This document shows, one piece after another, positions 14,031 through 46,035 of a stretch of DNA of 64,000 bases (position 1 is its first letter; each line of letters begins with the position of its first letter). The translations under genes were made by a program, and so were the position numbers. The notes beneath the pieces were generated by a model. It was not told the DNA's origin, did no database searches, and worked only from the letters and a program-made list of their open reading frames with translations. The stretch comes from Pseudarthrobacter sulfonivorans (GTDB taxonomy: Bacteria; Actinomycetota; Actinomycetes; Actinomycetales; Micrococcaceae), in contig NZ_CP013747.1 in assembly GCF_001484605.1 (NCBI RefSeq), positions 2,108,001 to 2,172,000 on the forward strand, written 5' to 3'.

Positions 14031-14202
14031 GCAGGACCGGGATGCTGTGCCACCCGGCCCGGCATCCCACTGACGTCTTCGTCCTCGCGAAGGATGAACT
14101 GTCCCGTTCCTGTAAATGGTGCTTCGGTGGCCTGAAACCTGGGGAGGTATCCTCATCGAAGCACCGCTTTCGGGCAACGGGGCAACGCCGGCACTCGCCG
14201 GA
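14031..14202. other. Stretch with no recognisable gene
   Basis: Between the 19-codon frame and the fdhA remnant I see no conserved protein, RNA or regulatory signal. Taken with both neighbours it looks like decayed sequence. Confidence 0.4.
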
Positions 14203-14396
14203 CAAGTGCATGGCAATCATGTCGTGTCGTACAACCGCCAGTTGATGATGGCCATCCTGCATGAAAAGGTCCAGATCGCCAAGGCAGTGAACGCCACAGC
14301 GATCCCACTTGAGGATGCTCCCCGCGGCTAGCCGAATTCGACGCCGGCTCGGCAACAAACTTCGTGCCGAACCCGAATGGATACGTCACGGCGTAG
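14203..14396 (+). pseudogene. 3' remnant of a glutathione-independent formaldehyde dehydrogenase gene
   Basis: Matches the C-terminal ~55 residues of the intact enzyme at 25349-26563: YNRQLMMAILH, IAKAVNATAI and DAPRG are shared. One base is missing after DAPRG (near 14330), turning the expected Gly-Tyr-Ala into Gly-stop; the next frame then continues AEFDAGSAT...NPNGY to a TAG at 14394-14396. A short repeat (GTCGT) also appears duplicated near 14220. The first ~85% of the gene is gone. It marks an earlier copy or an old rearrangement point near the present Mo-cofactor genes. Confidence 0.85.
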
Positions 14397-17292: not shown

Positions 17293-18111
17293 ATGACGAC
17301 ACGAGGCATGATGGCCGCACGCAATGACCCGGACAAGGACGCAGATGCGCAGGCTGGAGGCGTCCAATCGGTGGACCGCGCCCTCCAGATCCTGGACATC
17401 CTGGCCCGCGAAGGCGACGCCGGCGTCAGTGAAATCGCCGAAGAGATGGGCATACACAAGTCCACCGTGTCGAGGCTTGTGGGATCCTTGGTCGGGCGCG
17501 AGCTGGTGCGGCAGAACAGCGAACGTGGAAAGTACCAGCTGGGATTTGGCATCCTGCGCCTGGCATCGTCCATCCCGGGCAGGTTGAGCGTAGTTCACGA
17601 AGCCAGGGAGGTCCTCGAGAGCCTCGCAGCGGCATATAAGGAAACAGTCAACCTGGCCGTGCTGCGATCGAATTTTGCGGTTAACGTGGACCAGGCAATG
17701 GGACCCTCAACGCTGGCCACGTATGACTGGGTGGGCAGCCTGACACCCCTGCACGCCACGTCCAGTGGAAAAGTGCTGCTCGCTGCCCTGACTGCCGACG
17801 AAAGGGACGCGATCTTCAAGAGGATCGGCCTCCCAGCCCGCACGCCTCGTACCATCACCAACCGCTCGGAGCTGGAGAAGCAGCTGCTGGACGTCGCCCG
17901 CAATGGCTATGCCGTCGTTCACGAGGAGTTCGAGATCGGGCTGACGGCGGTTGCAGTACCGATCTACAACCACCTGGGAAACGTCATCGCTGCGGTGAGT
18001 ATTTCCGGCCCCGCCTTCCGGTTTACGCCGGAAGAACAGCCCGGGCTTGTTGACGGCCTCAAGGATGCAGGCCTGACCATCAGCACAAAAATGGGCTACA
18101 GGCGCCGGTAG
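17293..18111 (+). CDS. IclR-family transcriptional regulator
   Basis: Winged helix at ~residues 20-85 (SVDRALQILDILA, HKSTVSRLVGSLV) then the IclR effector domain with HATSSGKVLLAAL and the late AVAVPIYNHLGNVIAAVSISGP. 272 residues; ATG at 17308 or 17311 could be the true start. It precedes the first BCCT gene by ~550 bp in the same orientation and follows the Mo-cofactor genes, so either could be its target. Ligand unknown. Confidence 0.9.
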   Translation: MTTRGMMAARNDPDKDADAQAGGVQSVDRALQILDILAREGDAGVSEIAEEMGIHKSTVSRLVGSLVGRELVRQNSERGKYQLGFGILRLASSIPGRLSVVHEAREVLESLAAAYKETVNLAVLRSNFAVNVDQAMGPSTLATYDWVGSLTPLHATSSGKVLLAALTADERDAIFKRIGLPARTPRTITNRSELEKQLLDVARNGYAVVHEEFEIGLTAVAVPIYNHLGNVIAAVSISGPAFRFTPEEQPGLVDGLKDAGLTISTKMGYRRR

Positions 18112-18663
18112 GCCCGGCCCAACGGGCCACGCCTAGCAATACTCATGGGGTCGAGGATCCCTGCGCTTTCCACAAGGCTTGGCATGTAGAACCAACCGCA
18201 TTCAACGACCGTGTGGTCCGCAGCCATCGGGAACCCTGTGGATGATGACATGGTCCTCCACAGCTCTCCCTTCAACTGCCTCTTGCGCAACGACCCTCGT
18301 GATACGCAACAGCTTGATGCATCCCCCGCTGAGTGTCACATTCCCGGCAAATCAATCCCAACCCTTGACATCTCTTATTATCGAGCGCAATCTGTTGCTT
18401 ACTGCGAAAACAGTTGAGCCATGCGGAACGATCCCGCCTAACCCACTTAGCGCGAAATCAATCCCCTCAACATAAAGAGGTGCCCCATGCACCGGAGCCC
18501 CGGATGCACCCCCGGCAAACTGCCGGTGGGCACCACGAAGTGCAAATTGTCGACGGCAACAACATGATCATCGAATCGGACGAGGCCCCCCCAACCTTCC
18601 GGCCTGATTCCCGAGGGCCATGCTTTGCCGTAGGCCCGTGCCTCACCGATCAAAGGACCGTTC
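18112..18663. other. Long leader region before the first BCCT gene
   Basis: 552 bp with no convincing gene except the short frame at 18487. The last ~180 bp are clearly homologous to the sequence before the second BCCT gene (26640-26762), but diverged and with about 80 extra bases. The first ~350 bp show nothing I recognise. Confidence 0.5.
18487..18567 (+). CDS. Possible 26-residue leader peptide before BCCT copy 1
   Basis: ATG preceded by AAAGAGGTGCCCC, the same ribosome-site-plus-start string (AAAGAGGTGCCCCATGCAC) seen before the second BCCT at 26641-26659. The peptides themselves differ (Cys/Thr/Lys-rich here), so either the element regulates by position or only the ribosome-site-like sequence is conserved. 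Weak evidence for translation. Confidence 0.3.
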   Translation: MHRSPGCTPGKLPVGTTKCKLSTATT

Positions 18664-20691
18664 ATGGCTCTAAATAGTGATCTAAAATCCCATACACCCG
18701 AGGAGTTGCCTGCCGAGAACGCGTTGGCAGCAACTCCCCGCAACGAAGAACCTGGAAGTGGAAAGAGGAGTAAAGCAGCCTTTAGTGTCTCCGAGGATGT
18801 AGACACCAACCCTGCTGTCCTCGATCCGGAGGACGGAGCCGCAGAACCACTGCCGGATTCAGAAGAATACGAACAGATCCTTGAAGAGCTTCGTACTGCC
18901 AAAACCGCGCAGGCCGTCTCCCTGCGCCGGAACCACTCGCTTACGCTCGACAAAGTCACCTTCGGGATCACTGGCGCCATAGCCATCGCCTTTGTTATCT
19001 GGGGATTTGCCGGCCGGGACAGCCTCGCCTCGTCCTCCACGGTTGCCCTGAATTGGGTCATGGAATACACCGGCTGGCTCTTTATGGTCCTGGCTTCCCT
19101 GTTCGTAGTGTTCGTCCTGTGGCTGGCCCTGGGCAAGTTCGGCAATATCCCGCTGGGCAAGGACGGCGAGAAACCCGAATTCCGTACCGTCTCCTGGGTC
19201 GCGATGATGTTCGCCGCCGGCATGGGCATCGGACTGATGTTCTACGGTGTAGCCGAACCGCTCTACCACTACATCTCTCCCCCGCCCGGAACCGTGGACG
19301 GACGCACCCCCGCAGCGATCCAGACGGCCATGGCCACCTCGATCTTCCACTGGACCCTGCACCCCTGGGCAATGTACGCAGTGGTCGGCATTGCCATGGC
19401 GTACGGCACCTACCGCCTCGGCCGCCGGCAACTGGTCTCCGCAGCCTTCACCTCACTTTTCGGCATCAGGATGGTGGAAGGCCCGCTCGGGAAGTTCATC
19501 AACATCCTGGCCATTTTCGCTACCCTCTTTGGCACAGCCGCTTCCCTGGGCCTCGGCGCCCTGCAGATCGGCAGCGGCATGACCTCCAACGGCTGGTTCG
19601 GCGAAGTCGGCACTCCCGTGCTCGTGGGGATCGTCGCCGTCCTGACCTTCTGCTTCGTCGCTTCGGCCGTCTCCGGCATCAGCCGCGGCATCCAGTGGCT
19701 CTCCAACATCAACATGGTCCTGGCCGTCGTCCTCGCACTCATCGTTTTCATTGCCGGTCCGACCCTGTTCATCCTCAACCTGATCCCGTCCGCCGTCGGC
19801 GACTACGCCCGCGACCTGGCCGAGATGTCGTCCCGGACCGAAGCAGTCGGCGATGAAGCCCTTCGGAGCTGGATGACCAGCTGGACCATCTTCTACTGGG
19901 CCTGGTGGATCTCCTGGACGCCCTTCGTAGGCATGTTTATTGCCCGCATCAGCCGCGGCCGCACCATCCGCCAGTTCGTCACCGGCGTGCTGCTGGTCCC
20001 CAGCGTCGTCAGCGTCATCTGGTTTGGAATCTTCGGCGGAGCCGCTTTCCATGTCCAGCAGGAAGCCGATAAGGCAGGCACGCCCGGGCTGGTAACAACG
20101 GCCGACGGAGTATCCTCCGTCAACTTCGACGGTGCACTCTTCGACCTGGTCAAGAACCTTGGCATGCCGGGCTGGCTCACTGCCGGCGTCATCGTGCTGG
20201 CCATGGTCCTGGTCGCGATCTTCTTTGTCACCGGCGCCGATGCCGCTTCCATCGTGATGGGATCACTCAGCTCCAACGGCGCCGAACACCCCCGCCGCGG
20301 AGTGGTGATCTTCTGGGGCAGCCTCACCGGCGCCGTGGCCGCGGTCATGCTGCTGGCCGGCGGCGACGAACCCTCCGAAGCCCTGGCCGGCCTGCAACGC
20401 ATCACCATCGTCGCAGCGCTACCGTTCATCCTCGTCATGCTCCTGCTCTGCTTTGCCCTCGCCAAGGACCTGCGCCGCGATCCCCTGTCCCTGCGACGGC
20501 GCCTGGCCACATCCGTCGTCGAACGGGCCATCAGGACCGGCGTGGAACAACACGGCGGCGTTCAATTCGACCTCGTGACAAAGCACGAGTGCGCCGATTC
20601 GTGTCCGGACCCGGACTCCAACCAAGGCGGCACCCACACAGGCAGCATCCCAACCATCCAGACCCGACAGACAGACCGGGACAGCACCTAA
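18664..20691 (+). CDS. BCCT-family transporter, copy 1 (probable glycine betaine uptake)
   Basis: Secondary transporter of the betaine/choline/carnitine family, about 12 membrane helices between residues ~95 and ~610. The family signature in TM8 is visible: WTIFYWAWWISWTPFVGMF followed by ARISRGRTIR. A 70-residue acidic N-terminal tail and a ~50-residue C-terminal tail with a Cys pair (ECADSC) are cytoplasmic and may sense osmotic strength, as known for BetP. 675 residues. From residue ~59 on, it is identical to copy 2 (26763), while the first 58 residues differ widely. Neighbouring gbcAB suggests glycine betaine as substrate. Confidence 0.93.
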   Translation: MALNSDLKSHTPEELPAENALAATPRNEEPGSGKRSKAAFSVSEDVDTNPAVLDPEDGAAEPLPDSEEYEQILEELRTAKTAQAVSLRRNHSLTLDKVTFGITGAIAIAFVIWGFAGRDSLASSSTVALNWVMEYTGWLFMVLASLFVVFVLWLALGKFGNIPLGKDGEKPEFRTVSWVAMMFAAGMGIGLMFYGVAEPLYHYISPPPGTVDGRTPAAIQTAMATSIFHWTLHPWAMYAVVGIAMAYGTYRLGRRQLVSAAFTSLFGIRMVEGPLGKFINILAIFATLFGTAASLGLGALQIGSGMTSNGWFGEVGTPVLVGIVAVLTFCFVASAVSGISRGIQWLSNINMVLAVVLALIVFIAGPTLFILNLIPSAVGDYARDLAEMSSRTEAVGDEALRSWMTSWTIFYWAWWISWTPFVGMFIARISRGRTIRQFVTGVLLVPSVVSVIWFGIFGGAAFHVQQEADKAGTPGLVTTADGVSSVNFDGALFDLVKNLGMPGWLTAGVIVLAMVLVAIFFVTGADAASIVMGSLSSNGAEHPRRGVVIFWGSLTGAVAAVMLLAGGDEPSEALAGLQRITIVAALPFILVMLLLCFALAKDLRRDPLSLRRRLATSVVERAIRTGVEQHGGVQFDLVTKHECADSCPDPDSNQGGTHTGSIPTIQTRQTDRDST

Positions 20692-20713
20692 ACCCCACCC
20701 TCAGAAACAACCC

Positions 20714-20754
20714 GCCCCGGTAGCACGCGGCTTCCCAGCCCGTGCCACCGGGGC
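20714..20754 (+). other. Hairpin between BCCT copy 1 and the small gene
   Basis: GCCCCGGT (20714-20721) pairs with 20747-20754, then after one mismatch GCACG pairs with CGTGC (20741-20745). No U-run. Conserved in copy 2; possible transcript-end or processing signal lowering expression of the gene behind it. Confidence 0.5.
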
Positions 20755-20790
20755 ACACCCACACCCCCACCCAGCAGCAAAGGCCATCAC

Positions 20791-20979
20791 ATGCACAATC
20801 ACCACGATCAAAAACCAACCCTCCGCCTAAGCAAGAACGGAACGGAACCCATGGAAATCCAACTCGAACCAACAAACCCAGTAACCGTCCAACTACAACT
20901 GGACAGCAGCTGCAACTGCCAACACCACACCGAAAACCGCCCCGGCTCGTACATTGACAGCGACCTTGGCACCCCCTGA
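20791..20979 (+). CDS. Unknown 62-residue His/Cys-containing protein, copy 1
   Basis: I do not recognise a family. It starts MHNHHDQK, has a middle rich in Thr, Val and Gln, and a CNCQHH cluster at residues 41-46, which could bind a metal. No signal peptide or membrane segment. AAAGG lies 9 bp before the ATG, and it follows the BCCT gene by 99 bp. Copy 2 (28890-29078) keeps the frame with three amino-acid changes (Pro27Ser, Thr28Ser, Ser40Cys) and no stops. It could be a small partner of the transporter or an unrelated metal-binding peptide; function unknown. Confidence 0.6.
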   Translation: MHNHHDQKPTLRLSKNGTEPMEIQLEPTNPVTVQLQLDSSCNCQHHTENRPGSYIDSDLGTP

Positions 20980-21009
20980 CGGCAACACCACCCGCCACGC
21001 GGCACTAGC

Positions 21010-21292
21010 GTGACCGGACCGACGAGCTCACGAATATCGACCCTCAGAATCGCCAGGACGACCGCGAGCAGAACATAAGCCAGAGCTGTGTTGATTGCAG
21101 CGGGTGAAGCCGTGCAGCCGAAGGACGCCGGGCGTGGTTACAGCCCGCGAACGGCCCTTTCGTGAGCCGCTTGGACGCGCTCTGGCTCATCCAGGGCCGC
21201 CCCGCCTAGTACGGCTCAGAAGGCCGGCCGCGGTCGTGTCGCCACCTTTTAGACCTGCTGGCCCCCCGGCAACGAATCGCGGCCAGGCGATT
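21010..21292. other. Unassigned stretch before the LysR gene
   Basis: No intact gene. On the minus strand 21098-21021 reads as a hydrophobic helix-like segment (AINTALAYVLLAVVLAIL then RVDIREL), which may be a leftover of a membrane-protein gene. Nothing else recognised. Confidence 0.35.
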
Positions 21293-22225
21293 TCAGAGAT
21301 CGTCTTCGGGTCGGGCGGCGAGGATCCGATTGGCGCTGACCTGCAGGATGCCCAGCGACTCCTGGATCAGGGGCGATGCGATGCTGCCCCTGCGCACCGC
21401 AGCGACGATGCGGCGCGAGGGCTTCCCTTTGCCACTGATGCGCAGTCGAACCACGTTTTCGGCGCTATGCAAGGGTGCCAGTCGCGGCAGCAGGCCCACG
21501 CCCAGCCCCGCACCCACGAAGGCGATTTGGGTTTCCCATTCAACGGCCTCATGGGCAATGCGCGGTGTCACCCCGACTGCCGTGAACGCCGCCGTGAAGA
21601 GGGAGTGGTAGGTGGAACCGGCGGCTTCGGTGATCCATGGTTCCGACGCGAGCTCTTCGAGCGTCACCGTTTCCCGCGATGCCAACGGATGGTCAGCGGG
21701 AATGATCACGTCCAGGGGATCGTCGAGCAGAACGGTCTGTTCGAAGCGAGGATCGTCCTCAGCGTAGGTGTCGGACTGCATGGCAACAATGACCGCAAGG
21801 TCGATTCGCTCGGCAACCAACAAATCGAAGCAGCGGGCCGGGTTGGCCTCGAGTACCTGCACCTCAAGCAGTGGGCGTGTCGAGCGGAGGGTGGCGGCCA
21901 GCGGCGCGAGCAACTGTGCGGCCGCCGTGGAGAAACCGCCCAGGCCAAAACGGGACTGCACCTGGTCGCCGGCCTCCATGGCTGCTGCGCGCAGGCGCTC
22001 CCATTCGGCAATGAGGGTGTCCGAGCCGGCCACGAGAAAGCGGCCCGTGGCGGTCAGCCGCACGCCCCGGCCGTCCTTCGTCAGCAGCTGCATTCCAAGC
22101 ACACGCTGGAGCTCCCGCAATTGCGCGGAGACGGCGGAGGGAGAATACCCTGTGAGCTCCGCGGTTGCGCCAATGGTGCCGCACCGGGCAAACACCCGAA
22201 GTGTGATGAGCCTCGCATCGATCAT
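21293..22225 (-). CDS. LysR-family transcriptional regulator, divergent from gbcA
   Basis: Likely activator of the glycine-betaine monooxygenase operon. The N-terminal helix-turn-helix (LRVFARCGTIGATAELTGYSPSAVSAQLRELQ) starts a few residues after MIDARL, so ATG 22225 is chosen; the frame stays open to 22348. The rest is the periplasmic-binding-like effector domain. About 310 residues. Divergent arrangement with gbcA over a 161-bp gap is the classical LysR layout. In Pseudomonas gbcAB is controlled by the AraC-type GbdR instead, so the regulator type differs here. Confidence 0.9.
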   Translation of the reverse strand: MIDARLITLRVFARCGTIGATAELTGYSPSAVSAQLRELQRVLGMQLLTKDGRGVRLTATGRFLVAGSDTLIAEWERLRAAAMEAGDQVQSRFGLGGFSTAAAQLLAPLAATLRSTRPLLEVQVLEANPARCFDLLVAERIDLAVIVAMQSDTYAEDDPRFEQTVLLDDPLDVIIPADHPLASRETVTLEELASEPWITEAAGSTYHSLFTAAFTAVGVTPRIAHEAVEWETQIAFVGAGLGVGLLPRLAPLHSAENVVRLRISGKGKPSRRIVAAVRRGSIASPLIQESLGILQVSANRILAARPEDDL

Positions 22226-22239
22226 GCACCTATTGTGCA
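22225..22239. promoter_or_regulatory. Inverted repeat at the LysR start
   Basis: TGCAC (22225-22229) and GTGCA (22235-22239) with a 5-bp spacer, next to the LysR start codon. Possible autoregulatory site; short, so tentative. Confidence 0.3.
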
Positions 22240-22271
22240 CGGATATCTTCCAAATCTTGCGCTTTTGTTGC

Positions 22272-22284
22272 GGATCAATGATCC
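22272..22284. promoter_or_regulatory. Palindrome in the lysR-gbcA gap
   Basis: GGATCAATGATCC is a perfect palindrome around one central base, about 100 bp before gbcA. Position and symmetry fit a LysR-type recognition site. Confidence 0.4.
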
Positions 22285-22386
22285 CTAATCTCATGGTTAC
22301 AAGGTTTTCGACAACGCCGCTCGCACCCCACGCAGCCGTGGTCCCCACGAATCACACACTTACCCACGCCTCCCGGGAGGAAACAC

Positions 22387-23688
22387 ATGTCTGCTCCAGT
22401 CTTGCCCCTCAACTCACGCGGAAAACTCGCTTCATCCTTGCCTGCAGAGCAGCTGGCGGAAATCAGCGAGTTGTTCGAGTTCCGGCGCACGGGATATTCC
22501 CTCGATGCCCCCTTCTACACCGACCCGACGATTTTCGGCATCGACATGCAGGCCATTTTTGGCCAGCACTGGATCTTTGCCGCCAGCATCGCCGAACTGC
22601 CGGAGCCGGGCGACTACGTCACCGTCGACTACGGGCCCTACTCCCTGATCGTGCTGCGCAACGACGACGGCGGCGTGAACGTCCTGCACAACGTGTGCCG
22701 CCACCGCGGCGCCCGCGTCCTGACCGAACCCGCTGGGTCAACGGGAAACCTCGTATGCGGCTACCACTCTTGGACATACTCCCCCGACGGCAATCTAATC
22801 CACGCCTCGGCACCGGGTGAGACGAAGTTCGACAAGGGCTGCTTCGGCCTCAAGCGTGCCCACAGTCGCGTGGTCGCCGGGCTCATCTTCCTCTGCATAG
22901 CGGACGAACCGCCGACGGATTTCGACGAAACCGCTAAGATCTTCGAGCCTTACCTCGCGCCCCACGATCTGTCGAAGACGAAAGTCGCCTACCAGCAGAA
23001 CATCGTCGAGGAGGGCAACTGGAAGCTCGTCATGGAGAACAACCGTGAGTGCTACCACTGCGACGGCCACCCGGAGCTCGCCTGTTCCCTCTTTCCCACC
23101 TGGGGCCTGACCGAGGGGCTGATCCCGGCCCATCTTGAGGAAGTGTGGGACCGCAACAAGGAAGCACAGTCCTCGCTCGAGGAGCGTTGCCGCCGCTATG
23201 GCCTCCCCTATGAGGTGGTGGAGGAGCTTGACACGCGCATAGCGGGAATCCGCATCTCTCGGGAATCGCTCGATGGTGACGGCGAATCGTTCTCGCCCGA
23301 TGGTCGCAGGCTCTCCAAGAAGCTGCTCGGCGACTTGCGGGACTTCCGCCTTGGCCGCTGCTCGATGCACCTGCAGCCCAACAGCTGGTTCCACTTCCTG
23401 GGGGACCACGTCATCACGTTCGGCGTCTTCCCCATCAACGAACACCAGACCTTGGTACGCACCACTTGGCTGGTAGCTGACGATGCCGAGGAAGGCGTCG
23501 ACTACGATCTGGACAAACTCACCTACACCTGGAAGCAGACCAATCTGCAGGACAAGGCGTTCGTGGAGCTGTGCCAGAAGGGCGCCAGCAGCCCCGCCTA
23601 CGAGCCCGGCCCGTACATGAAGAGCGAATACCAGGTGGAGGCGTTCATCAACTGGTATGTCCAGCGCGTGCAGGAGCACTTGGCATGA
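22387..23688 (+). CDS. gbcA: Glycine betaine monooxygenase, Rieske oxygenase subunit
   Basis: Oxidatively demethylates glycine betaine to dimethylglycine and formaldehyde. Rieske 2Fe-2S ligands are Cys104, His106, Cys124 and His127 (CRHRG...CGYHSW). The mononuclear-iron site follows in NNRECYHCDGHPE. 433 residues fits GbcA. The ATGA junction with gbcB shows coupled translation. Downstream formaldehyde dehydrogenase and the dimethylglycine oxidase elsewhere in the window take both products. Related Rieske demethylases act on carnitine or stachydrine, but context favours betaine. Confidence 0.93.
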   Translation: MSAPVLPLNSRGKLASSLPAEQLAEISELFEFRRTGYSLDAPFYTDPTIFGIDMQAIFGQHWIFAASIAELPEPGDYVTVDYGPYSLIVLRNDDGGVNVLHNVCRHRGARVLTEPAGSTGNLVCGYHSWTYSPDGNLIHASAPGETKFDKGCFGLKRAHSRVVAGLIFLCIADEPPTDFDETAKIFEPYLAPHDLSKTKVAYQQNIVEEGNWKLVMENNRECYHCDGHPELACSLFPTWGLTEGLIPAHLEEVWDRNKEAQSSLEERCRRYGLPYEVVEELDTRIAGIRISRESLDGDGESFSPDGRRLSKKLLGDLRDFRLGRCSMHLQPNSWFHFLGDHVITFGVFPINEHQTLVRTTWLVADDAEEGVDYDLDKLTYTWKQTNLQDKAFVELCQKGASSPAYEPGPYMKSEYQVEAFINWYVQRVQEHLA

Positions 23689-25100
23689 TTGAACTCCTCA
23701 CCGAGACGGCAACCCAGGAACCACAGCGCATTCGCGGTCTTGAGATGCCGTGGAACAGGGTGATGGGCAGCACCGAGGGACCCGCCAGTGCCGCCCGTGC
23801 TTTGGGTCCCTGGCATCCGCAGGAGTTCATGGCCGAATGTGTCGAGATCGTTCCCGAGGTGGGCGGCATGATGACCTTCGTGTTCCGTCGCTCTGACGGT
23901 GCGCCGCTGGCGTTCCGTGCGGGCCAGTACGTGAACGTCGCCTTCCCCGTGAACGGCGAGGACCGGGACCCGGTGGACCGCAGCTACTCGCTGTCCAGTT
24001 CGCCCACCAAACCGTGGACCTTCGACATCACAGTTAAACGCGATCCCACGGGATTGGTCTCACCGTGGGTGCACGAGAACATCAAGCCCGGCACCGTCCT
24101 CGAGATGCTCGGACCGGTCGGGGCATTCCATCTGCCAGATGCCGATCGCCGGGCACGGTACCTCTTGCTGGCCGCCGGCGCAGGCATCACCCCCATCATG
24201 TCGATGGTGCGGACCATTCACTCCCTTCCTGGACAGGCCGATGTTGTGGTGCTGTACCACGGAGCGGAGGCCGGAGGCTTTGCCTTCCACAAAGAGCTGG
24301 CCTACATCGCCTCCGTGGACTCGCGAGTCACGGTCTTCTACTCCCTGGGCGACCGCAGCATACCCGAGGGATGGGAAGGGCTCAGCGGACGGCTGACGGC
24401 GGCCATGCTCAACGAGGTGGCCCCCGATGCCAACGGCCGCCAGGTCTATGCCTGCGGCCCCGAGGGTTACCTGAACACCGCCACCGAGCTCCTCAAGAAG
24501 GTCGGCGTCGACGACACCTCCATCTACATAGAATTCTTCTCGGGAGACCGCCAGACGATCCTTGAATACCAGGCGGAGCTCGCGCTTGCAGTGGACATTG
24601 CGGAGGAAATCGCTGAGGAAATCGCCCAATCCGCCGAGGACTACTACGAAAGCCAGCCCACCGCTTTCGGGCTCTACGAGCCGGGCTACGACGCCGAGGG
24701 AACCCTGAAGGCCACGGGGCTGCCGCTGGAAACCGCCGACCCGGACGCGCCCTGCCCCGAAGCCCCCGACGGCAGTCCGGAAGTGGGGCCGGAGGCAGGG
24801 TCCCCCGATGCCTCAAGCTTCGACACGGTCGGAACGGGAAGCCTCACCCTGTCCTTCATGCGCACCGGCATCAACGTGCGCATCGACCCCGCCGAACACA
24901 TCCTCGGGGCGGCCCAGCGTGCGGGCGTCAGGATCGGCGCGAACTGCAAGGAGGGCATGTGCGGCTCCTGCAAGGTCGTCAAGCTTTCCGGGCAGGTGGA
25001 GATGAACCACCAGGGCGGGATCCGGGCACGGGAAATCGATGCAGGCAAGTTCCTGCCCTGCTGCTCCACCGCGCGGACCGATTTGGTGATCGATGCCTAG
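23685..25100 (+). CDS. gbcB: Glycine betaine monooxygenase reductase with a long acidic linker
   Basis: Feeds electrons from NAD(P)H to GbcA. Order: FAD-binding barrel (DRSYSLSSSP, ~residues 85-95), nucleotide domain (LLLAAGAGITPIMSM; YACGPEGYL), then a C-terminal plant-type 2Fe-2S domain with CKEGMCGSC and a distal Cys in LPCCSTA. Between the last two lies an acidic Pro/Glu/Asp-rich linker of roughly 100 residues (~285-385), so the protein is 471 residues against about 366 in Pseudomonas GbcB. ATG 23685 overlaps the gbcA stop. Confidence 0.92.
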   Translation: MIELLTETATQEPQRIRGLEMPWNRVMGSTEGPASAARALGPWHPQEFMAECVEIVPEVGGMMTFVFRRSDGAPLAFRAGQYVNVAFPVNGEDRDPVDRSYSLSSSPTKPWTFDITVKRDPTGLVSPWVHENIKPGTVLEMLGPVGAFHLPDADRRARYLLLAAGAGITPIMSMVRTIHSLPGQADVVVLYHGAEAGGFAFHKELAYIASVDSRVTVFYSLGDRSIPEGWEGLSGRLTAAMLNEVAPDANGRQVYACGPEGYLNTATELLKKVGVDDTSIYIEFFSGDRQTILEYQAELALAVDIAEEIAEEIAQSAEDYYESQPTAFGLYEPGYDAEGTLKATGLPLETADPDAPCPEAPDGSPEVGPEAGSPDASSFDTVGTGSLTLSFMRTGINVRIDPAEHILGAAQRAGVRIGANCKEGMCGSCKVVKLSGQVEMNHQGGIRAREIDAGKFLPCCSTARTDLVIDA

Positions 25101-25279
25101 CCGCTCCCACATGCGGGACATAAATGCACCACCGGCTCGAGGGCATGTGCGATAAAGATGCCGGCCGCCATACCCCCCATCCATCGCCACAGTCAGCCTG
25201 AACGCCTTCGCTGCCCGTAGCGATATGCGCTGCACATATCAATTGACCCAACTTGCTTCACGGAAACTGACAACAACTA

Positions 25280-25318
25280 CCTCACGGACAGTCTGATGCG
25301 ACCAACATCACCGTGAGG
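25280..25318 (+). promoter_or_regulatory. Bulged 13-bp hairpin in the leader of the formaldehyde dehydrogenase gene
   Basis: CCTCACGG (25280-25287) pairs with CCGTGAGG (25311-25318), and TGATG (25294-25298) with CATCA (25306-25310), leaving a 6-base one-sided bulge and a 7-base loop. No U-run follows, and it ends 30 bp before the start codon. Could be an RNA control element or a protein operator. Confidence 0.5.
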
Positions 25319-25348
25319 GTTCGATCGCCAACCCATAGGAGCCATTCA

Positions 25349-26563
25349 ATGTCAGGTAACAAAGCCGTTGCATACAAGGCCCCGGGGATCGTGGAAATCA
25401 TCGATACCCCGTTTCCCACCTTTGAACTGCAGGCCGGCCCCGGCGTCAATCCCGTCAATGTCGGCCGGAAGGTCCCGCACGGGGTCATCCTGCGCACCGT
25501 GAGCACCAACATCTGCGGCTCGGACCAGCACATGGTTCGTGGCCGCACGACCGCTCCGGCCGGCCTCGTCCTGGGGCACGAGATCACCGGGGAAGTCATC
25601 GAGACCGGGCCCGACGTCGAGTTCATCAAGGTCGGGGACATCGTCTCGGTCCCCTTCAACATCTCCTGCGGGCGCTGCCGGAACTGCAAGGAGGGCAAGA
25701 CCGGAATCTGCCTGAACGTGAACCCGGACCGTCCCGGGTCCGCCTACGGCTATGTTGACATGGGTGGATGGGTCGGCGGGCAGGCGGAGTTCGTCCTGGT
25801 CCCCTATGCGGACTGGAACCTGTTGCGGTTCCCTGATCGGGACCAGGCCCTGGAGAAGATCATGGACCTGACCATGCTCTCGGACATCCTCCCGACCGGT
25901 TTCCACGGGGCCGTTACGGCAGGTGTCGGCGTCGGGTCCACCGTCTATGTTGCCGGGGCCGGTCCCGTGGGGCTTGCCGCGGCGGCCAGCGCGCAGCTGC
26001 TGGGGGCCGCGGTGGTCATCGTGGGGGATCTCAATGAGGATCGCCTGGCCCAGGCCCGATCCTTTGGCTGCGAAACCGTCAATGTGGCCGTCGGCGATCC
26101 GGCTGACCAGATCGAGCAGCTTCTCGGCGTCCGGGAGGTCGATGCCGGTATCGACGCGGTCGGTTTCGAGGCCCGCGGGCACGGCGCCGGGGCCCAGGAG
26201 GCGCCGGCTACCGTGCTCAATTCGCTGATGGACCTCACCGCCGCCGGCGGGTCCCTGGGCATTCCCGGCCTTTATGTCACCGGGGATCCGGGTGCCGCGG
26301 ACGAGGCGGCCCAGAAGGGCAGCCTGTCCCTGTCCCTGGGCACCGGCTGGGCGAAGTCCCTCTCCTTCGCGACCGGCCAGTGCCCGGTGATGAAGTACAA
26401 CCGGCAGCTGATGATGGCGATCCTGCATGACAGGATCCAGATCGCCAAGGCGGTCAACGCCACGGCCATTTCGCTCCAGGATGCCCCTCGGGGGTACGCG
26501 GAATTCGATGCCGGAGCCGCCACGAAGTATGTCCTGGACCCGAACGGCTACCTCAGCAACTAG
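25349..26563 (+). CDS. fdhA: Glutathione-independent formaldehyde dehydrogenase
   Basis: Zinc- and NAD-dependent enzyme oxidising formaldehyde from GbcAB to formate. Catalytic zinc motifs NICGSDQHM and LGHEITGEV, the structural-zinc cluster CGRCRNCKEGKTGIC, and VAGAGPVGLAAA of the Rossmann fold are all present. 404 residues, close to Pseudomonas FdhA. Start at ATG 25349 behind AGGAG. Actinobacteria lack glutathione, so this enzyme type fits. A remnant of a related gene lies at 14203-14396. Confidence 0.93.
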   Translation: MSGNKAVAYKAPGIVEIIDTPFPTFELQAGPGVNPVNVGRKVPHGVILRTVSTNICGSDQHMVRGRTTAPAGLVLGHEITGEVIETGPDVEFIKVGDIVSVPFNISCGRCRNCKEGKTGICLNVNPDRPGSAYGYVDMGGWVGGQAEFVLVPYADWNLLRFPDRDQALEKIMDLTMLSDILPTGFHGAVTAGVGVGSTVYVAGAGPVGLAAAASAQLLGAAVVIVGDLNEDRLAQARSFGCETVNVAVGDPADQIEQLLGVREVDAGIDAVGFEARGHGAGAQEAPATVLNSLMDLTAAGGSLGIPGLYVTGDPGAADEAAQKGSLSLSLGTGWAKSLSFATGQCPVMKYNRQLMMAILHDRIQIAKAVNATAISLQDAPRGYAEFDAGAATKYVLDPNGYLSN

Positions 26564-26653
26564 TCCGAGGAAATGTGTTGATCCGTGCCGAACGATGGGA
26601 GGCTTCCGGCCTTACCTAAGCAAACTTGATCCCTGGCCCCAAAGAGGTGCCCC

Positions 26654-26725
26654 ATGCACAAGGCCCTGAATCGGAGGAAGCCCCCAACCTTCCCCCCGGG
26701 CTCACCTCTCAAGGCCATGTTTTAG
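26654..26725 (+). CDS. Possible 23-residue leader peptide before BCCT copy 2
   Basis: Same ribosome-site-plus-start string as at 18474-18492. The peptide (MHKALNRRKPP...) is basic and proline-rich and ends 37 bp before the BCCT start. Translation unproven. Confidence 0.3.
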   Translation: MHKALNRRKPPTFPPGSPLKAMF

Positions 26726-26762
26726 CCGCAAGCCCATGATCCGCCGAGCAAAGGATTCGCTC

Positions 26763-28790
26763 ATGGCTATAAGCCGTGACTTAAAACCCTCAATCCCCGA
26801 GGAGTTGACTGCCGACAACGCTTTGGCAGCAACTCCCCCCAACGAAAAGCCCGAAAGTACGCGAAACACCGAAACAGTCATTGGTGTCCCCGCGGGAGAA
26901 AACACCAACCCTGCTGTCCTGGATCCGGAGGACGGAGGCGCAGAACCACTGCCGGATTCAGAAGAATACGAACAGATCCTTGAAGAGCTTCGTACTGCCA
27001 AAACCGCGCAGGCCGTCTCCCTGCGCCGGAACCACTCGCTTACGCTCGACAAAGTCACCTTCGGGATCACTGGCGCCATAGCCATCGCCTTTGTTATCTG
27101 GGGATTTGCCGGCCGGGACAGCCTCGCCTCGTCCTCCACGGTTGCCCTGAATTGGGTCATGGAATACACCGGCTGGCTCTTTATGGTCCTGGCTTCCCTG
27201 TTCGTAGTGTTCGTCCTGTGGCTGGCCCTGGGCAAGTTCGGCAATATCCCGCTGGGCAAGGACGGCGAGAAACCCGAATTCCGTACCGTCTCCTGGGTCG
27301 CGATGATGTTCGCCGCCGGCATGGGCATCGGACTGATGTTCTACGGTGTAGCCGAACCGCTCTACCACTACATCTCTCCCCCGCCCGGAACCGTGGACGG
27401 ACGCACCCCCGCAGCGATCCAGACGGCCATGGCCACCTCGATCTTCCACTGGACCCTGCACCCCTGGGCAATGTACGCAGTGGTCGGCATTGCCATGGCG
27501 TACGGCACCTACCGCCTCGGCCGCCGGCAACTGGTCTCCGCAGCCTTCACCTCACTTTTCGGCATCAGGATGGTGGAAGGCCCGCTCGGGAAGTTCATCA
27601 ACATCCTGGCCATTTTCGCTACCCTCTTTGGCACAGCCGCTTCCCTGGGCCTCGGCGCCCTGCAGATCGGCAGCGGCATGACCTCCAACGGCTGGTTCGG
27701 CGAAGTCGGCACTCCCGTGCTCGTGGGGATCGTCGCCGTCCTGACCTTCTGCTTCGTCGCTTCGGCCGTCTCCGGCATCAGCCGCGGCATCCAGTGGCTC
27801 TCCAACATCAACATGGTCCTGGCCGTCGTCCTCGCACTCATCGTTTTCATTGCCGGTCCGACCCTGTTCATCCTCAACCTGATCCCGTCCGCCGTCGGCG
27901 ACTACGCCCGCGACCTGGCCGAGATGTCGTCCCGGACCGAAGCAGTCGGCGATGAAGCCCTTCGGAGCTGGATGACCAGCTGGACCATCTTCTACTGGGC
28001 CTGGTGGATCTCCTGGACGCCCTTCGTAGGCATGTTTATTGCCCGCATCAGCCGCGGCCGCACCATCCGCCAGTTCGTCACCGGCGTGCTGCTGGTCCCC
28101 AGCGTCGTCAGCGTCATCTGGTTTGGAATCTTCGGCGGAGCCGCTTTCCATGTCCAGCAGGAAGCCGATAAGGCAGGCACGCCCGGGCTGGTAACAACGG
28201 CCGACGGAGTATCCTCCGTCAACTTCGACGGTGCACTCTTCGACCTGGTCAAGAACCTTGGCATGCCGGGCTGGCTCACTGCCGGCGTCATCGTGCTGGC
28301 CATGGTCCTGGTCGCGATCTTCTTTGTCACCGGCGCCGATGCCGCTTCCATCGTGATGGGATCACTCAGCTCCAACGGCGCCGAACACCCCCGCCGCGGA
28401 GTGGTGATCTTCTGGGGCAGCCTCACCGGCGCCGTGGCCGCGGTCATGCTGCTGGCCGGCGGCGACGAACCCTCCGAAGCCCTGGCCGGCCTGCAACGCA
28501 TCACCATCGTCGCAGCGCTACCGTTCATCCTCGTCATGCTCCTGCTCTGCTTTGCCCTCGCCAAGGACCTGCGCCGCGATCCCCTGTCCCTGCGACGGCG
28601 CCTGGCCACATCCGTCGTCGAACGGGCCATCAGGACCGGCGTGGAACAACACGGCGGCGTTCAATTCGACCTCGTGACAAAGCACGAGTGCGCCGATTCG
28701 TGTCCGGACCCGGACTCCAACCAAGGCGGCACCCACACAGGCAGCATCCCAACCATCCAGACCCGACAGACAGACCGGGACAGCACCTAA
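26763..28790 (+). CDS. BCCT-family transporter, copy 2 (probable glycine betaine uptake)
   Basis: 675 residues, same length as copy 1. Residues from ~59 to the end are identical; residues 1-58 share only the pattern PEEL...NALAATP...TNPAVLDPEDG. Start at MAISRDL (26763) is chosen by alignment with copy 1, though the frame is open from 26736. It follows fdhA by ~200 bp on the same strand. Because the membrane part is identical, any functional difference must lie in the N-terminal tail or in expression. Confidence 0.93.
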   Translation: MAISRDLKPSIPEELTADNALAATPPNEKPESTRNTETVIGVPAGENTNPAVLDPEDGGAEPLPDSEEYEQILEELRTAKTAQAVSLRRNHSLTLDKVTFGITGAIAIAFVIWGFAGRDSLASSSTVALNWVMEYTGWLFMVLASLFVVFVLWLALGKFGNIPLGKDGEKPEFRTVSWVAMMFAAGMGIGLMFYGVAEPLYHYISPPPGTVDGRTPAAIQTAMATSIFHWTLHPWAMYAVVGIAMAYGTYRLGRRQLVSAAFTSLFGIRMVEGPLGKFINILAIFATLFGTAASLGLGALQIGSGMTSNGWFGEVGTPVLVGIVAVLTFCFVASAVSGISRGIQWLSNINMVLAVVLALIVFIAGPTLFILNLIPSAVGDYARDLAEMSSRTEAVGDEALRSWMTSWTIFYWAWWISWTPFVGMFIARISRGRTIRQFVTGVLLVPSVVSVIWFGIFGGAAFHVQQEADKAGTPGLVTTADGVSSVNFDGALFDLVKNLGMPGWLTAGVIVLAMVLVAIFFVTGADAASIVMGSLSSNGAEHPRRGVVIFWGSLTGAVAAVMLLAGGDEPSEALAGLQRITIVAALPFILVMLLLCFALAKDLRRDPLSLRRRLATSVVERAIRTGVEQHGGVQFDLVTKHECADSCPDPDSNQGGTHTGSIPTIQTRQTDRDST

Positions 28791-28812
28791 ACCCCACCCT
28801 CAGAAACAACCC

Positions 28813-28853
28813 GCCCCGGTAGCACGCGGCTTCCCAGCCCGTGCCACCGGGGC
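28813..28853 (+). other. Hairpin between BCCT copy 2 and its small gene
   Basis: Exact counterpart of the hairpin at 20714-20754. Confidence 0.5.
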
Positions 28854-28889
28854 ACACCCACACCCCCACCCAGCAGCAAAGGCCATCAC

Positions 28890-29078
28890 ATGCACAATCA
28901 CCACGATCAAAAACCAACCCTCCGCCTAAGCAAGAACGGAACGGAACCCATGGAAATCCAACTCGAATCATCAAACCCAGTAACCGTCCAACTACAACTG
29001 GACAGCTGCTGCAACTGCCAACACCACACCGAAAACCGCCCCGGCTCGTACATTGACAGCGACCTTGGCACCCCCTGA
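28890..29078 (+). CDS. Unknown 62-residue His/Cys-containing protein, copy 2
   Basis: Same start (MHNHHDQK) and C-terminal YIDSDLGTP as copy 1. Residue 40 is Cys, giving CCNCQHH at 40-46. The three changes from copy 1 fall inside an otherwise near-identical repeat and leave the frame open. Function unknown; metal binding is a guess from residue content. Confidence 0.6.
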   Translation: MHNHHDQKPTLRLSKNGTEPMEIQLESSNPVTVQLQLDSCCNCQHHTENRPGSYIDSDLGTP

Positions 29079-29183
29079 CGGCAACAGCACCCGCCACGCG
29101 GCACCAGCCCCAAAACCATGACCGTTCAGCTGGGCATCCCAGTACTCCACCGGGCCAGGAACAACAATCAAGGGCCCGCACGT

Positions 29184-29740
29184 ATGTCACGCCTGGCAGG
29201 ATTACCTTCGAAGTTGCTGGACCGTTTTGGCCGCCAAGCAACCGACCTGCGGCTGTCAGTCACAGACAAATGCAACCTTCGCTGCGCATTCTGCATGCCG
29301 GCAGACGGCATGCAGTGGCTGCCGAAGGAAGCCCTCATGGCGGCGGAAGAGATCCGGAGAATCGTGAGCCTCGGTATCGAGAGACTAGGTGTGAGGGAGC
29401 TCCGAATCACCGGTGGCGAACCCTTGATCCGACCGGACCTCGTCGATCGCCGCGGTGCGGGACTCCCTGCACGAGGATGTTTTTACTCCAACTGACCCGC
29501 CGCCCGTTCCTCGGCAATGTGCTCGCCGGCGCCGAAGAGGCCCGCGCCGTGGGCCTTGGACCGGTCAAATCAACGCTGTGCTGATGCGCGGGGTCAACGA
29601 CCAAGAAGCCCCGGAGCTGTCCACCGCAAATACCTCGAGGCCGACCAAACGGACGCCGCCGCCCACCCGGCGTCCGCAGACCTGGGATTCGCCGCCCGGG
29701 CCAGCGCTCCCGCCGGTCTCTGAAACGCCCCGGACCTGAA
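29184..29740 (+). pseudogene. Broken moaA (GTP 3',8-cyclase)
   Basis: Begins like a normal MoaA: FGRQATDLRLSVTDKCNLR with the CNLRCAFCMP radical-SAM cluster, then LGVRELRITGGEPLIRPDLVD. Around 29447 the frame shifts (AAVRDSLHEDVFT continues in another frame), a segment of about 30 codons is missing before LTRRPFLGNVLAGAEEARA, and one base is lost near 29568 between GLGPVK and NAVLMRGVNDQEAPEL. The C-terminal iron-sulfur cysteines are absent. It cannot make a working enzyme, so moaA must be elsewhere if the Mo enzyme is used. Confidence 0.88.
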
Positions 29741-29832
29741 TTACAGCCCGGTTCACGCCGGCCGCCGTTCACCAGCGGAAACCAGCCGGTAGCCACAGCC
29801 GGTAGCCCGGGCTCCGCAACCCCAAATACAAG

Positions 29833-29872
29833 AAACGCCGACGGCGACAGTCAGCTGTCGCCGTCGGCGTTT
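29833..29872. terminator. Terminator behind the nucleoside operon
   Basis: Perfect 18-bp stem (29833-29850 with 29855-29872), 4-base loop TCAG, bordered by AAA on one side and TTT on the other, so usable from both strands. It lies 34 bp past the ribokinase stop. Confidence 0.85.
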
Positions 29873-29906
29873 CCCGCGTTTCCGTCAGCCCGTCAGACGG
29901 CGCCCG

Positions 29907-43400: not shown

Positions 43401-44753
43401 ATGCCCCTCTCTGACAAGGATTCCGCCATTTCCACGGACGCATTCTTCGCCACGCTCACCCGGATCCGCAATGTCATCCTGCCTGCGGCAGCACGGTCCT
43501 GGCTGAACACGCCCCGTGGACTGCTCACGGGCTTTGTCCTGGTGCACCTGGGTTTCCTGATCTTCGCGGCGCTGCTGTCCCTGCGCGGCGAAGCGTTCAG
43601 TGACACCTTCATTTACCGCGACTGGGCCCGGGCGGGTTTCGATGAAGCGAACCTCAGCGGCGGCCCCAGCCCATGGGTGTACCCCATCCTCGCGCTGATC
43701 CCGATGGCACTTGCAGGGCTTGCCGGTCCCGGACCGTTCTTCTTCCTCTGGGTGCTGATGACCACTATCCTCAACGGCTGGGCCCTGGCCAAGCTCACTG
43801 ACCGTGGCCGCAACCAAGCCGCCATCCCGGCAGCCTGGTGGTGGCTGGTCTTCACCCTGCTCATGGGTTGGCTTGGCTTCGCACGCGTGGACGGCCTCAC
43901 CGCACCGATCGTCCTGGTGGCCCTGGCCTATGGTGTGGGCCGGCCGTTTATCGCGTCGGTCCTGCTTGCCGCGGCCACCTGGGTAAAGGTGTGGCCGGCC
44001 GCCGTCATGCTGGCCCTCTTCGCCGTCGTCAAGAACCGCCTCCTGGTGGTGCTGGCCGGTGTGGCCACGTCAGCGGTGGTGGTGGCACTCGCCGCCGCGG
44101 TTGGCAGTGTGCCCAAGCTGCTGAACTTCCTGACCCAGCAGGGCGACAGGGGCATGCAGCTCGAGGCAACATTCACCACCCCGTGGCTGTGGCTGTCCGT
44201 GCTGAACATCGGCGACTCCCGGATGTACATGAACACCGCTATCAACTCCATGCAGGTGGACGGCCCCGGCACGGCCGTGATGTCGGTGCTGATGCAGCCG
44301 CTCCTCATCCTTGCTGCGCTGCTGGTGGCCGGGCTGACCTTCTGGGCGCTGCACAACGGCAAGCTCAACGGCAACGGAAAGGCCGACGGCGGCGTGGACC
44401 GCACCGAGCTGCTGCTGGCCGGCGCGCTCACCCTGGCCACCGCCTTTGTGGTGTTCAACAAGGTGGGCTCGCCCCAGTTCATGGTGTGGCTGGCCCCGGC
44501 CGTAGCGGTGGGCCTGGCGCACAGCTGGCATGAGTGGCGGGTCCCCGCGGCCATGCTCATCGCCATCGCCGTGGCCACGTTCTTCATCTACCCGCTGTTC
44601 TACGATGCGCTCAGCCACAACAACCCCCTCATGGCCGGCGTGCTGACCATCCGCAACGTCCTCCTGGTGGTCCTGTTCCTGTGGTCGGTCCGGCGCCTGT
44701 ACTCGCTGGGCAAAAAGACTTCAGCGTCCGTCCCCGCGCTCAAGGAGTCCTAA
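43401..44753 (+). CDS. GT87-like integral membrane protein 1 (DUF2029)
   Basis: About ten membrane helices; the first outer loop has the FSDTFIYRDWARAGF motif with acidic residues and SPWVYP, as in GT-C-type polyprenyl-phosphate-sugar mannosyltransferases (GT87). 450 residues. Tandem with a paralogue 1-2 bases downstream (NKVGSPQFMVWLAP is shared). Probably adds sugars to a cell-envelope glycan outside the membrane; acceptor unknown. Confidence 0.8.
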   Translation: MPLSDKDSAISTDAFFATLTRIRNVILPAAARSWLNTPRGLLTGFVLVHLGFLIFAALLSLRGEAFSDTFIYRDWARAGFDEANLSGGPSPWVYPILALIPMALAGLAGPGPFFFLWVLMTTILNGWALAKLTDRGRNQAAIPAAWWWLVFTLLMGWLGFARVDGLTAPIVLVALAYGVGRPFIASVLLAAATWVKVWPAAVMLALFAVVKNRLLVVLAGVATSAVVVALAAAVGSVPKLLNFLTQQGDRGMQLEATFTTPWLWLSVLNIGDSRMYMNTAINSMQVDGPGTAVMSVLMQPLLILAALLVAGLTFWALHNGKLNGNGKADGGVDRTELLLAGALTLATAFVVFNKVGSPQFMVWLAPAVAVGLAHSWHEWRVPAAMLIAIAVATFFIYPLFYDALSHNNPLMAGVLTIRNVLLVVLFLWSVRRLYSLGKKTSASVPALKES

Positions 44754-44754
44754 G

Positions 44755-46035
44755 ATTTCCACGAAGTTCTTCGACCGGCTGGTCAGCGTCCGCAGCACCG
44801 TCCTGCCCGCCCGCGTAGTGGACTGGTTCGCCCGTCCGTCCAGCGTCTGGTGGGGCTTCGCGGTCATCCACCTGTACTTCCTGGGCTGGATGGCGTCCTT
44901 CTTCCTCAACGGCGATACGTTCAGCGACACCGAGCAGTACCGCCAGTGGGCCATGGACGGCTACAACCCGGACAGCCTGGACGGCAAGATCAGCCCCTGG
45001 GTCTACCCGGTGCTGGCGCAGATCCCGATCTTCCTCGCGAACATTGCCGGACCCAGCCTGTACCTCCTGTGCTGGTTCCTGATCATCACAGCGCTCAACG
45101 CCGTCGGGCTTACCTTCCTGACGCGCGGTCCGCGGAAGGTGAAGGGAATCGCCCCGGCCTGGTGGTGGCTGTTTTTCACCGTCTTTATGGGTTACCTCAG
45201 CTTCGCCCGGGTGGAGGGCATCACCGCCCCCATCGTGCTGATTGCCCTGTTGTACGCGGCCGAACGCCCCGTGGTGGCAGGGATCCTGCTTAGCGTGGCC
45301 ACCTGGCTCAAGGTGTGGCCGGCAGCGGTCCTCGTGCCGATCGTCATTGCCAGCCGCAAGCGGATCCAAGTGCTGGCGTCCGGCGTCGCAGTCACCGCCG
45401 TCGTGGGCCTGGGCACGTACCTTTCCGGCGGCCTGCCTCACATCATGGACTTCCTGACCAACCAGGGCGAACGTGGCATGCAGCTTGAAGCCACGTTCTC
45501 CACACCGTGGGTGTGGCTCAGCGTATTCAACATCGCCGGGTCCAAGATGGCGGACAACACGGCCATCAACTCCACCGAGGTCTACGGCCCGGGCGCCGAC
45601 GTGGCCGCCTTCCTGATGCAGCCCCTGCTGATCCTCGCCGCCGTGGTAGCCGCCGTCCTGCTGGTCCGGGCGCTGAACCGCGGCGCAGAGCGGGAGGAAC
45701 TCTTCCTTGAGGGCGCGCTGATGATGACCACGGCATTCATTGTGTTCAACAAGGTGGGTTCGCCGCAGTTCATTGTCTGGCTGGCCCCCGTGATCATCGC
45801 GGGCCTCACGCACGACTGGGACCGCTGGAAGGTCCCGGCGGCGCTGCTCATGGGGATCGCCGTGACCACCTTTGTGATCTACCCACTGTTCTACACGCCC
45901 CTGATCCACGCCCACCCGGTCATGGCCGCCATCCTGACCACGCGCAACGTGCTCCTGGTGGTGCTGCTGTGGTGGTCGGTGAAGCGGACCGCGGAGCTGG
46001 GCCGCAAATCGCAGGCGGTCCCTCAGGCCGCCTGA
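44755..46035 (+). CDS. GT87-like integral membrane protein 2, apparent ATT start
   Basis: Paralogue of the preceding gene (FSDTEQYRQWAMDGY, SPWVYP, NKVGSPQFIVWLAP). The first ordinary start is GTG 44818, which has no ribosome site. The frame is open back to the upstream stop, and AAGGAG (44742-44747) lies 7 bp before an ATT at 44755. Residues from that point (KFFDRLVSVRSTVLPARVV) align with the paralogue's AFFATLTRIRNVILPAAAR, so translation most likely begins at ATT or the sequence has an error there. 426 residues from ATT, 405 from GTG. Confidence 0.82.
   Translation: MSTKFFDRLVSVRSTVLPARVVDWFARPSSVWWGFAVIHLYFLGWMASFFLNGDTFSDTEQYRQWAMDGYNPDSLDGKISPWVYPVLAQIPIFLANIAGPSLYLLCWFLIITALNAVGLTFLTRGPRKVKGIAPAWWWLFFTVFMGYLSFARVEGITAPIVLIALLYAAERPVVAGILLSVATWLKVWPAAVLVPIVIASRKRIQVLASGVAVTAVVGLGTYLSGGLPHIMDFLTNQGERGMQLEATFSTPWVWLSVFNIAGSKMADNTAINSTEVYGPGADVAAFLMQPLLILAAVVAAVLLVRALNRGAEREELFLEGALMMTTAFIVFNKVGSPQFIVWLAPVIIAGLTHDWDRWKVPAALLMGIAVTTFVIYPLFYTPLIHAHPVMAAILTTRNVLLVVLLWWSVKRTAELGRKSQAVPQAA

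Follow-up and report, generated by a model that had tools for sequence, protein, structure and literature searches.

Two BCCT transporter genes flanking a putative glycine-betaine demethylation cluster have very probably evolved partly in concert through recurrent gene conversion

The BCCT gene pair and its surroundings

The window, i.e. the whole stretch of 64,000 nucleotides analysed here, lies in G000:C1, one of the two contigs of genome G000 and 5,043,757 bases long, and contains two genes of the BCCT transporter family, both on the forward strand and each coding for 675 residues. Copy 1 (18664..20691, ATG at 18664) occupies position P1, after an iclR and before a lysR gene, while copy 2 (26763..28790, ATG at 26763, with a possible start nine codons earlier at 26736 in the mechanically called ORF) occupies position P2, after fdhA and before a moaA fragment. 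The two copies are direct repeats 8.1 kb apart and share 98% identity at the DNA level and 96% at the protein level. Upstream of copy 1 lies the gene for an IclR-family regulator (17293..18111, forward strand), and the interval between the copies holds a LysR-family regulator on the reverse strand (21293..22348), followed on the forward strand by a GbcA-like Rieske oxygenase (22387..23688; best NCBIfam match NF058607, GbcA, 383.8 bits, below the cut-off of 670), a GbcB-like reductase (23571..25100; best NCBIfam match NF058606, GbcB, 235 bits, below the cut-off of 500) and the glutathione-independent formaldehyde dehydrogenase FdhA (25313..26563; TIGR02819, 735 bits, above the cut-off of 636.95). 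The true start of the GbcB-like gene is probably further in than that of the mechanical ORF, near the end of gbcA. An old pair of BCCT duplicates flanking a glycine-betaine demethylation cluster is the best explanation for this arrangement.

Compared at an offset of 8099, the copies show 0 mismatches over 2,029 bp (18840..20868 versus 26939..28967, both forward strand), a tract that extends from residue 59 to 177 bp beyond the stop codon, and none of the ~478 synonymous sites of the core differs. To the left, 43 sites mismatch within the 176 coding bases 18664-18839, which belong to the diverged leader and N-terminal tail of copy 1 (18464..18839, forward strand), the counterpart in copy 2 being located at 26590..26938 on the same strand. 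To the right, a shoulder at 20869..21009 in copy 1 and 28968..29108 in copy 2 (both forward strand) carries five substitutions (20869, 20872, 20908, 20988 and 21006), and inter-copy homology ends at 21009/29108 (blastn). The original prediction, made from this stretch of sequence, had described two 675-residue copies with an identical 2,029-bp core and five substitutions before the right end of homology, all of which was recovered here. It had also called the preceding 176 coding bases and the leader diverged with only scattered conserved words, which holds for the coding bases, but weaker homology persists upstream of the ATG (71% at 18564-18663 and 46% at 18464-18563). Its further statement that the tails differ has to be corrected, as the C-terminal tail lies inside the identical tract of both copies and differences occur only in the sequence before the ATG, in residues 1 to ~59 and at five bases 3' of the stop codon. 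Chance as the source of the identical tract was rejected, the probability of a 2,029-bp gap being ~1e-41 if 48 differences were spread evenly over 2,343 bases; this null ignores selection, so that relatives such as G137 are the better control.

About 100 bp 3' of each BCCT gene, behind a stem-loop, lies a small ORF of 62 aa with a CNC motif. The strong stem-loop of copy 1 (20714..20754, forward strand; -35.7 kcal/mol, z -4.74) is located between the transporter gene and the small ORF (20791..20979, forward strand). Because the tract is identical in both copies, the same stem-loop sequence recurs at copy 2 (28813..28853, forward strand), ahead of a small ORF (28890..29078, forward strand) whose protein is 95% identical to that of copy 1. 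Homologues of the small protein numbered 18 at E <= 1e-3, unnamed or hypothetical, and no Pfam match was obtained at E <= 1; the small protein may be a transporter partner that has so far escaped notice. Its relatives recur 3' of BCCT genes in many loci, and also occur with no BCCT gene between, directly after fdhA in G135 and G083 and after a GbcB-like gene in G076.

Several further features were observed in and around the cluster. The moaA-like ORF following copy 2 (29118-29495) is short, with 125 aa covering positions 1-77 of 336 of TIGR02666, and since the two moaA matches of G181 lie ~6 kb apart and G137 retains a 42-aa match only, moaA looks broken in several genomes. A remnant of a second fdhA is present at 14173-14347 (62% over 52 aa; 82% DNA identity to 26395-26514), and a full-length second fdhA is located upstream of fdhD in G131, G066 and G206. 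Elsewhere, the window contains a further diverged tandem repeat (43833-45980), the copies being ~1.3 kb apart and 73-80% identical in the pieces that align, and a near-perfect inverted repeat of ~42 bp (29832-29873).

Leaders and cores in two related genomes

The same gene order, iclR, BCCT-1, lysR, gbcA, gbcB, fdhA and BCCT-2, is found in G137, a separate one-contig assembly with 94% identity to G000 over a neighbouring 7.6 kb, in which copy 1 and copy 2 differ at 3 of 1,965 sites. Each leader of G000 is orthologous to the leader at the same position in G137, with 95% identity between the P1 and 94.5% between the P2 leaders, and paralogue leaders align at ~74%. When sites were counted across the four sequences (P1 and P2 of both genomes) as grouping by position or by genome, 80 grouped by position and 1 by genome at 18464-18802, 0 and 1 at 18803-18839, and 0 and 72 at 18840-20768. 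The counts of 0 and 4 at 20769-20868 and of 0 and 2 at 20869-21006 come from poorly aligned sequence, the homology of G137 P1 being lost past 20768, and sites past 21006 are unrelated flanks in which such counts are meaningless.

The same picture was obtained from substitution rates and trees. Over 1,852 sites of the core CDS, G000 and G137 differ at 68 sites in copy 1 and 67 in copy 2 (59 and 58 of them, respectively, at third positions), compared with 0 and 1 differences within G000 and G137. Core dS (Nei-Gojobori) amounts to 0 for the G000 pair and 0.002 for the G137 pair, and to 0.130 and 0.128 between genomes. In codons 1-58 of the leader, which offer only 29-42 synonymous sites, dS is 0.40 and 0.31 between paralogues and 0.13 and 0.07 between orthologues; dN between the G000 and G137 orthologues is 0.04-0.07 in the leader CDS versus 0.008 in the core. 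For the leaders (18 rows), a clade uniting the two copies of either genome was rejected (p-AU 1.2e-175 and 1.3e-9), whereas the core tree, built from 24 rows, recovers the G000 pair and the G137 pair as separate clades (identical; 100/100). Six rows (G210_P2, G168_Pi, G168_Pm, G211_P1, G211_ma and G211_mb) were left out of the AU test because of long branches or poor leader coverage, and in the tree that retains them, with all 24 rows, both pairings reappear but are less well supported.

As leaders group by position and cores by genome, these comparisons support well a duplication that predates the split of G000 and G137, with the cores homogenised afterwards, once or more in each lineage. Paralogues that are closer than orthologues, an older duplication, homogenised synonymous sites and sharp breakpoints, which together characterise concerted evolution, are all found at this locus. 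The alignment with related genomes thus recovered in both G000 and G137 what the original prediction had proposed for the former, namely old paralogues with breakpoints left by recent gene conversion. We consider it very probable that the BCCT pair has undergone partial concerted evolution, i.e. recurrent gene conversion by homologous recombination.

Relatives, alternative origins and the course of conversion

Searching 206 genomes of the genus with the core, with at most two candidates scored per genome, gave matches at E <= 1e-50 in 140; no third genome among the 206 carries the G000 core at 100% identity, the next best reaching 96%. Two core matches were listed for 22 genomes, and the copies were compared in 21, with one strain per species; G096 is the exception, its pieces having no overlap, and the comparison covers the P1 gene and the P2 remnant for G131 and two of three copies for G172. 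The best pair reaches at least 97% identity in 6 of the 21 (G000, G137, G116, G171, G206 for P1 versus P1b, and G076) and 72-92% in the other 15. Pairs at both syntenic positions are present in four genomes, three of which are homogenised (G000, G137 and G116) and one of which, G206, is not. In the draft genome G116, a single difference separates the 3' parts of P1 and P2 over 690 sites, after which homology ends abruptly, within a few bases of the stop codon. The P1/P2 pair of G206 is 87.2% identical, with a dS of 0.59 in the leader and 0.44 in the core. Copies that differ evenly along the gene, which the original prediction had named as speaking against conversion, do occur here, but as the unconverted state, the dS of which gives the age of the duplication.

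In the draft genome G171, whose copies lie at other positions, 25 differences fall at query positions 210-281 and 3 in the 564 bp beyond, a left edge similar to that of G000 but ~105 bp further in. Three other candidates were not counted as homogenised P1/P2 pairs: the copies of G036 are 88.9% alike over the stretch available, with only the last 140 bp identical, possibly an assembler overlap, and its contigs also break within the BCCT gene; the copies of G076 (97.9%) are at other positions; and P1 and P1b of G206 (98.5%) belong to a duplicated cluster, a recent duplication being as likely in the latter two cases.

Leaders are not strictly bound to their position. The P2 gene of G181 has P2-type sequence at 18464-18553 and a P1-type leader from ~18644, with ~95 bp of a P1 remnant kept beside lysR, while the P1 gene of G131 has a P2-type leader and its P2 is reduced to a 3' remnant; given these two exchanges, leaders can move too. 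In addition, the gbcA-gbcB tree places G000 with G181 and G137 with G131, whereas the core tree unites G000, G137 and G181, and the identity between G000 and G137 is uneven along the cluster (iclR 99.5%, lysR 98.5%, gbcB 91.2%). Taken together, the tree conflict and the uneven identity indicate that exchange between species also occurred, and relative dating is therefore rough.

Against this background, four other origins of the identical core were weighed. Separate recent tandem duplications in each species, followed by fast divergence of the leaders, would yield identical cores in each genome, and the leader CDS does evolve fast at the protein level; yet a new duplicate would bring its own leader along, whereas the copy-1 leaders of G000 and G137 pair with each other, and so do the copy-2 leaders, paralogue leader dS (0.40 and 0.31) is about three times the orthologue value (0.13 and 0.07), and G206 has both positions with a diverged core, all of which makes this origin very improbable. 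We attach equally little probability to an assembly artefact, in which the assembler wrote a single core sequence into both places. Short-read assembly can collapse or duplicate a 2-kb repeat, and the contigs of the drafts G116 and G171 do break inside the gene, but the G000 contig measures 5.04 Mb, the five right-shoulder differences would not outlast plain consensus copying past 20868, and the separate one-contig assembly of G137 has the same layout with 3 differences in 1,965 bp, which answers the corresponding worry of the original prediction. Import of a foreign core into both copies by homologous recombination, for which the traces of inter-species exchange in the cluster might speak, is just as hard to credit, as each lineage would have had to import an identical sequence twice, with identical edges, and a single import followed by conversion between the copies would be simpler and amounts to gene conversion again. 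Strong purifying selection alone, holding the core identical with no recombination, is in keeping with the conserved core protein (dN 0.008 between genomes) but has a negligible probability in view of 0 of ~478 synonymous sites differing between the copies versus ~57 synonymous changes between genomes.

Under recurrent gene conversion, homologous recombination between the direct repeats would repeatedly have copied one BCCT gene over the other, the latest event in the G000 lineage being a conversion over 18840-20868. The converted tract would span the conserved transporter body with its C-terminal tail, then the stem-loop and the first part of the small ORF, and its left end would lie at the point where paralogue identity is as low as ~75%. 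We infer that RecA-type recombination transferred sequence non-reciprocally; the outcome would look the same in the sequence if sister chromosomes had undergone a double reciprocal exchange. The left edge of G000 falls between 18802 and 18840, and the right edge at 20868, with the shoulder reaching to 21006. The last leader differences of G137 are at 18802, 18805 and 18810, the next one following at 19248, and at the place shared by both genomes paralogue identity drops to 72-79%. Paralogue identity of this order is too low for efficient recombination, and the left edge needs no further explanation than this low identity (~75%). The right edge differs between the two genomes, as copy 1 of G137, which also lacks 54 bp of the leader, has no homology past 20768.

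Five differences in 138 bp beside 0 in 2,029 have a probability of ~1e-6 if both segments are of a single age, which points to at least two layers of conversion, a newer core with 0 differences within an older, wider zone of scattered ones; derived bases occur on both copies. If rates are equal, a conversion as old as the separation of G000 and G137 should have left ~73 differences; with 0 observed (95% limit, 3 events), the last conversion would fall within roughly the most recent 4% of the time since then. Regarding the donor, the core dS from G000 is 0.39 to P1 of G131, similar to the paralogue distance of G206, but 0.23 to P2 of G004 and 0.18 to P2 of G181, despite an equal closeness of G131 and G004 in gbcA (93.3 and 93.5% identity); in these few genomes, the greater distance of the P1 core gives a faint suggestion that P2 overwrote P1, copy 2 being the likelier donor.

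The transporter, its regulation and known systems

Copy 1 matches the BCCT family by PF02028 (E 7.8e-171, 569 bits, cut-off 27) and TIGR00842 (490.3 bits, cut-off 407.55), and its best PDB match is BetP (9gkk_A, E 2.7e-152, residues 103-617), the Na+/betaine symporter of Corynebacterium glutamicum. Based on family and best match, glycine betaine is the likely substrate and both products are putative betaine symporters, with 517.6 bits against NF047988, the equivalog for glycine betaine uptake, being below the required 650. In BetP, Trp377 and Tyr197 coordinate betaine, and Thr467 and Ser468 form part of the Na2 site (PMC6400524). In the alignment, Trp377, Tyr197 and Thr467 are kept here, whereas Ser468 is replaced by Gly (FFVTGADAAS, position by alignment count), the tails align poorly and the score stays below the betaine equivalog cut-off. 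Of 109 loci searched by pattern for the Ser468 position, 42 have Gly, 3 have Ser and 64 do not match the pattern, and because of this Gly the ion coupling of this BCCT subfamily may differ from that of BetP.

The C-terminal domain of BetP is an osmosensor that contacts the N-terminus of a neighbouring subunit (PMC10710835). A C-terminal tail is also present here (residues 606-675), and as it lies within the identical tract, divergence between the two proteins is limited to residues 1 to ~59. The net charge of the N-terminal tails (residues 1-58) is equal, -7 and -7, so that charge gives no hint of different regulation. Separate expression of the two copies is likely, as judged from their differing upstream regions; a scan of 18100-29300 for sigma-70-type promoters found 0 sites versus a shuffle mean of 2.0 and is uninformative on separate control. 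That selection holds the left edge, so that a shared body is combined with distinct heads (upstream region plus ~59 residues) which are kept apart and occasionally swapped, as in G181 and G131, is a speculative and rather unlikely reading. If true, it would mean one transporter under two controls, betaine catabolism on the one hand and a separate IclR-linked signal on the other.

The locus resembles GbcAB glycine-betaine demethylation clusters in that a Rieske oxygenase, a reductase and FdhA follow one another in this order with a BCCT gene adjoining, and it differs from them by GbcA and GbcB matches below the NCBIfam cut-offs and by two BCCT genes that flank the cluster. For Arthrobacter sp. 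Rue61a, one BCCT gene has been reported (PMC3534580). Our literature search, thin on subscription journals, found neither gene conversion of BCCT genes nor relevant conversion of Arthrobacter paralogues. Within the literature searched, the process itself, concerted evolution by homologous recombination, is known, and its occurrence in this BCCT gene pair is new. The finding has practical consequences, as gene trees built from the transporter core would date the duplication far too late and the two copies break short-read assemblies. Moreover, the genus displays several stages side by side, unconverted (G206), just converted (G000), nearly new (G137) and broken remains (G181 and G131), so that edges, rate and direction of conversion become measurable.

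Long-lasting, recurrent concerted evolution of prokaryotic duplicates has been described for tuf, amoCAB, haoA, psbA and others (Wang and Chen 2018, PMC6053082). The 26 genes in two tables of that survey include no BCCT transporter, and it sought near-full-length homogenisation in five or more species within an order, whereas here most of the gene is homogenised, with a sharp left edge, in three genomes of one genus, a smaller number than the survey demands. With the cases described there, the BCCT pair has in common that paralogues are closer to each other than to their orthologues, that synteny dates the duplication as older, and that synonymous sites are homogenised as well.
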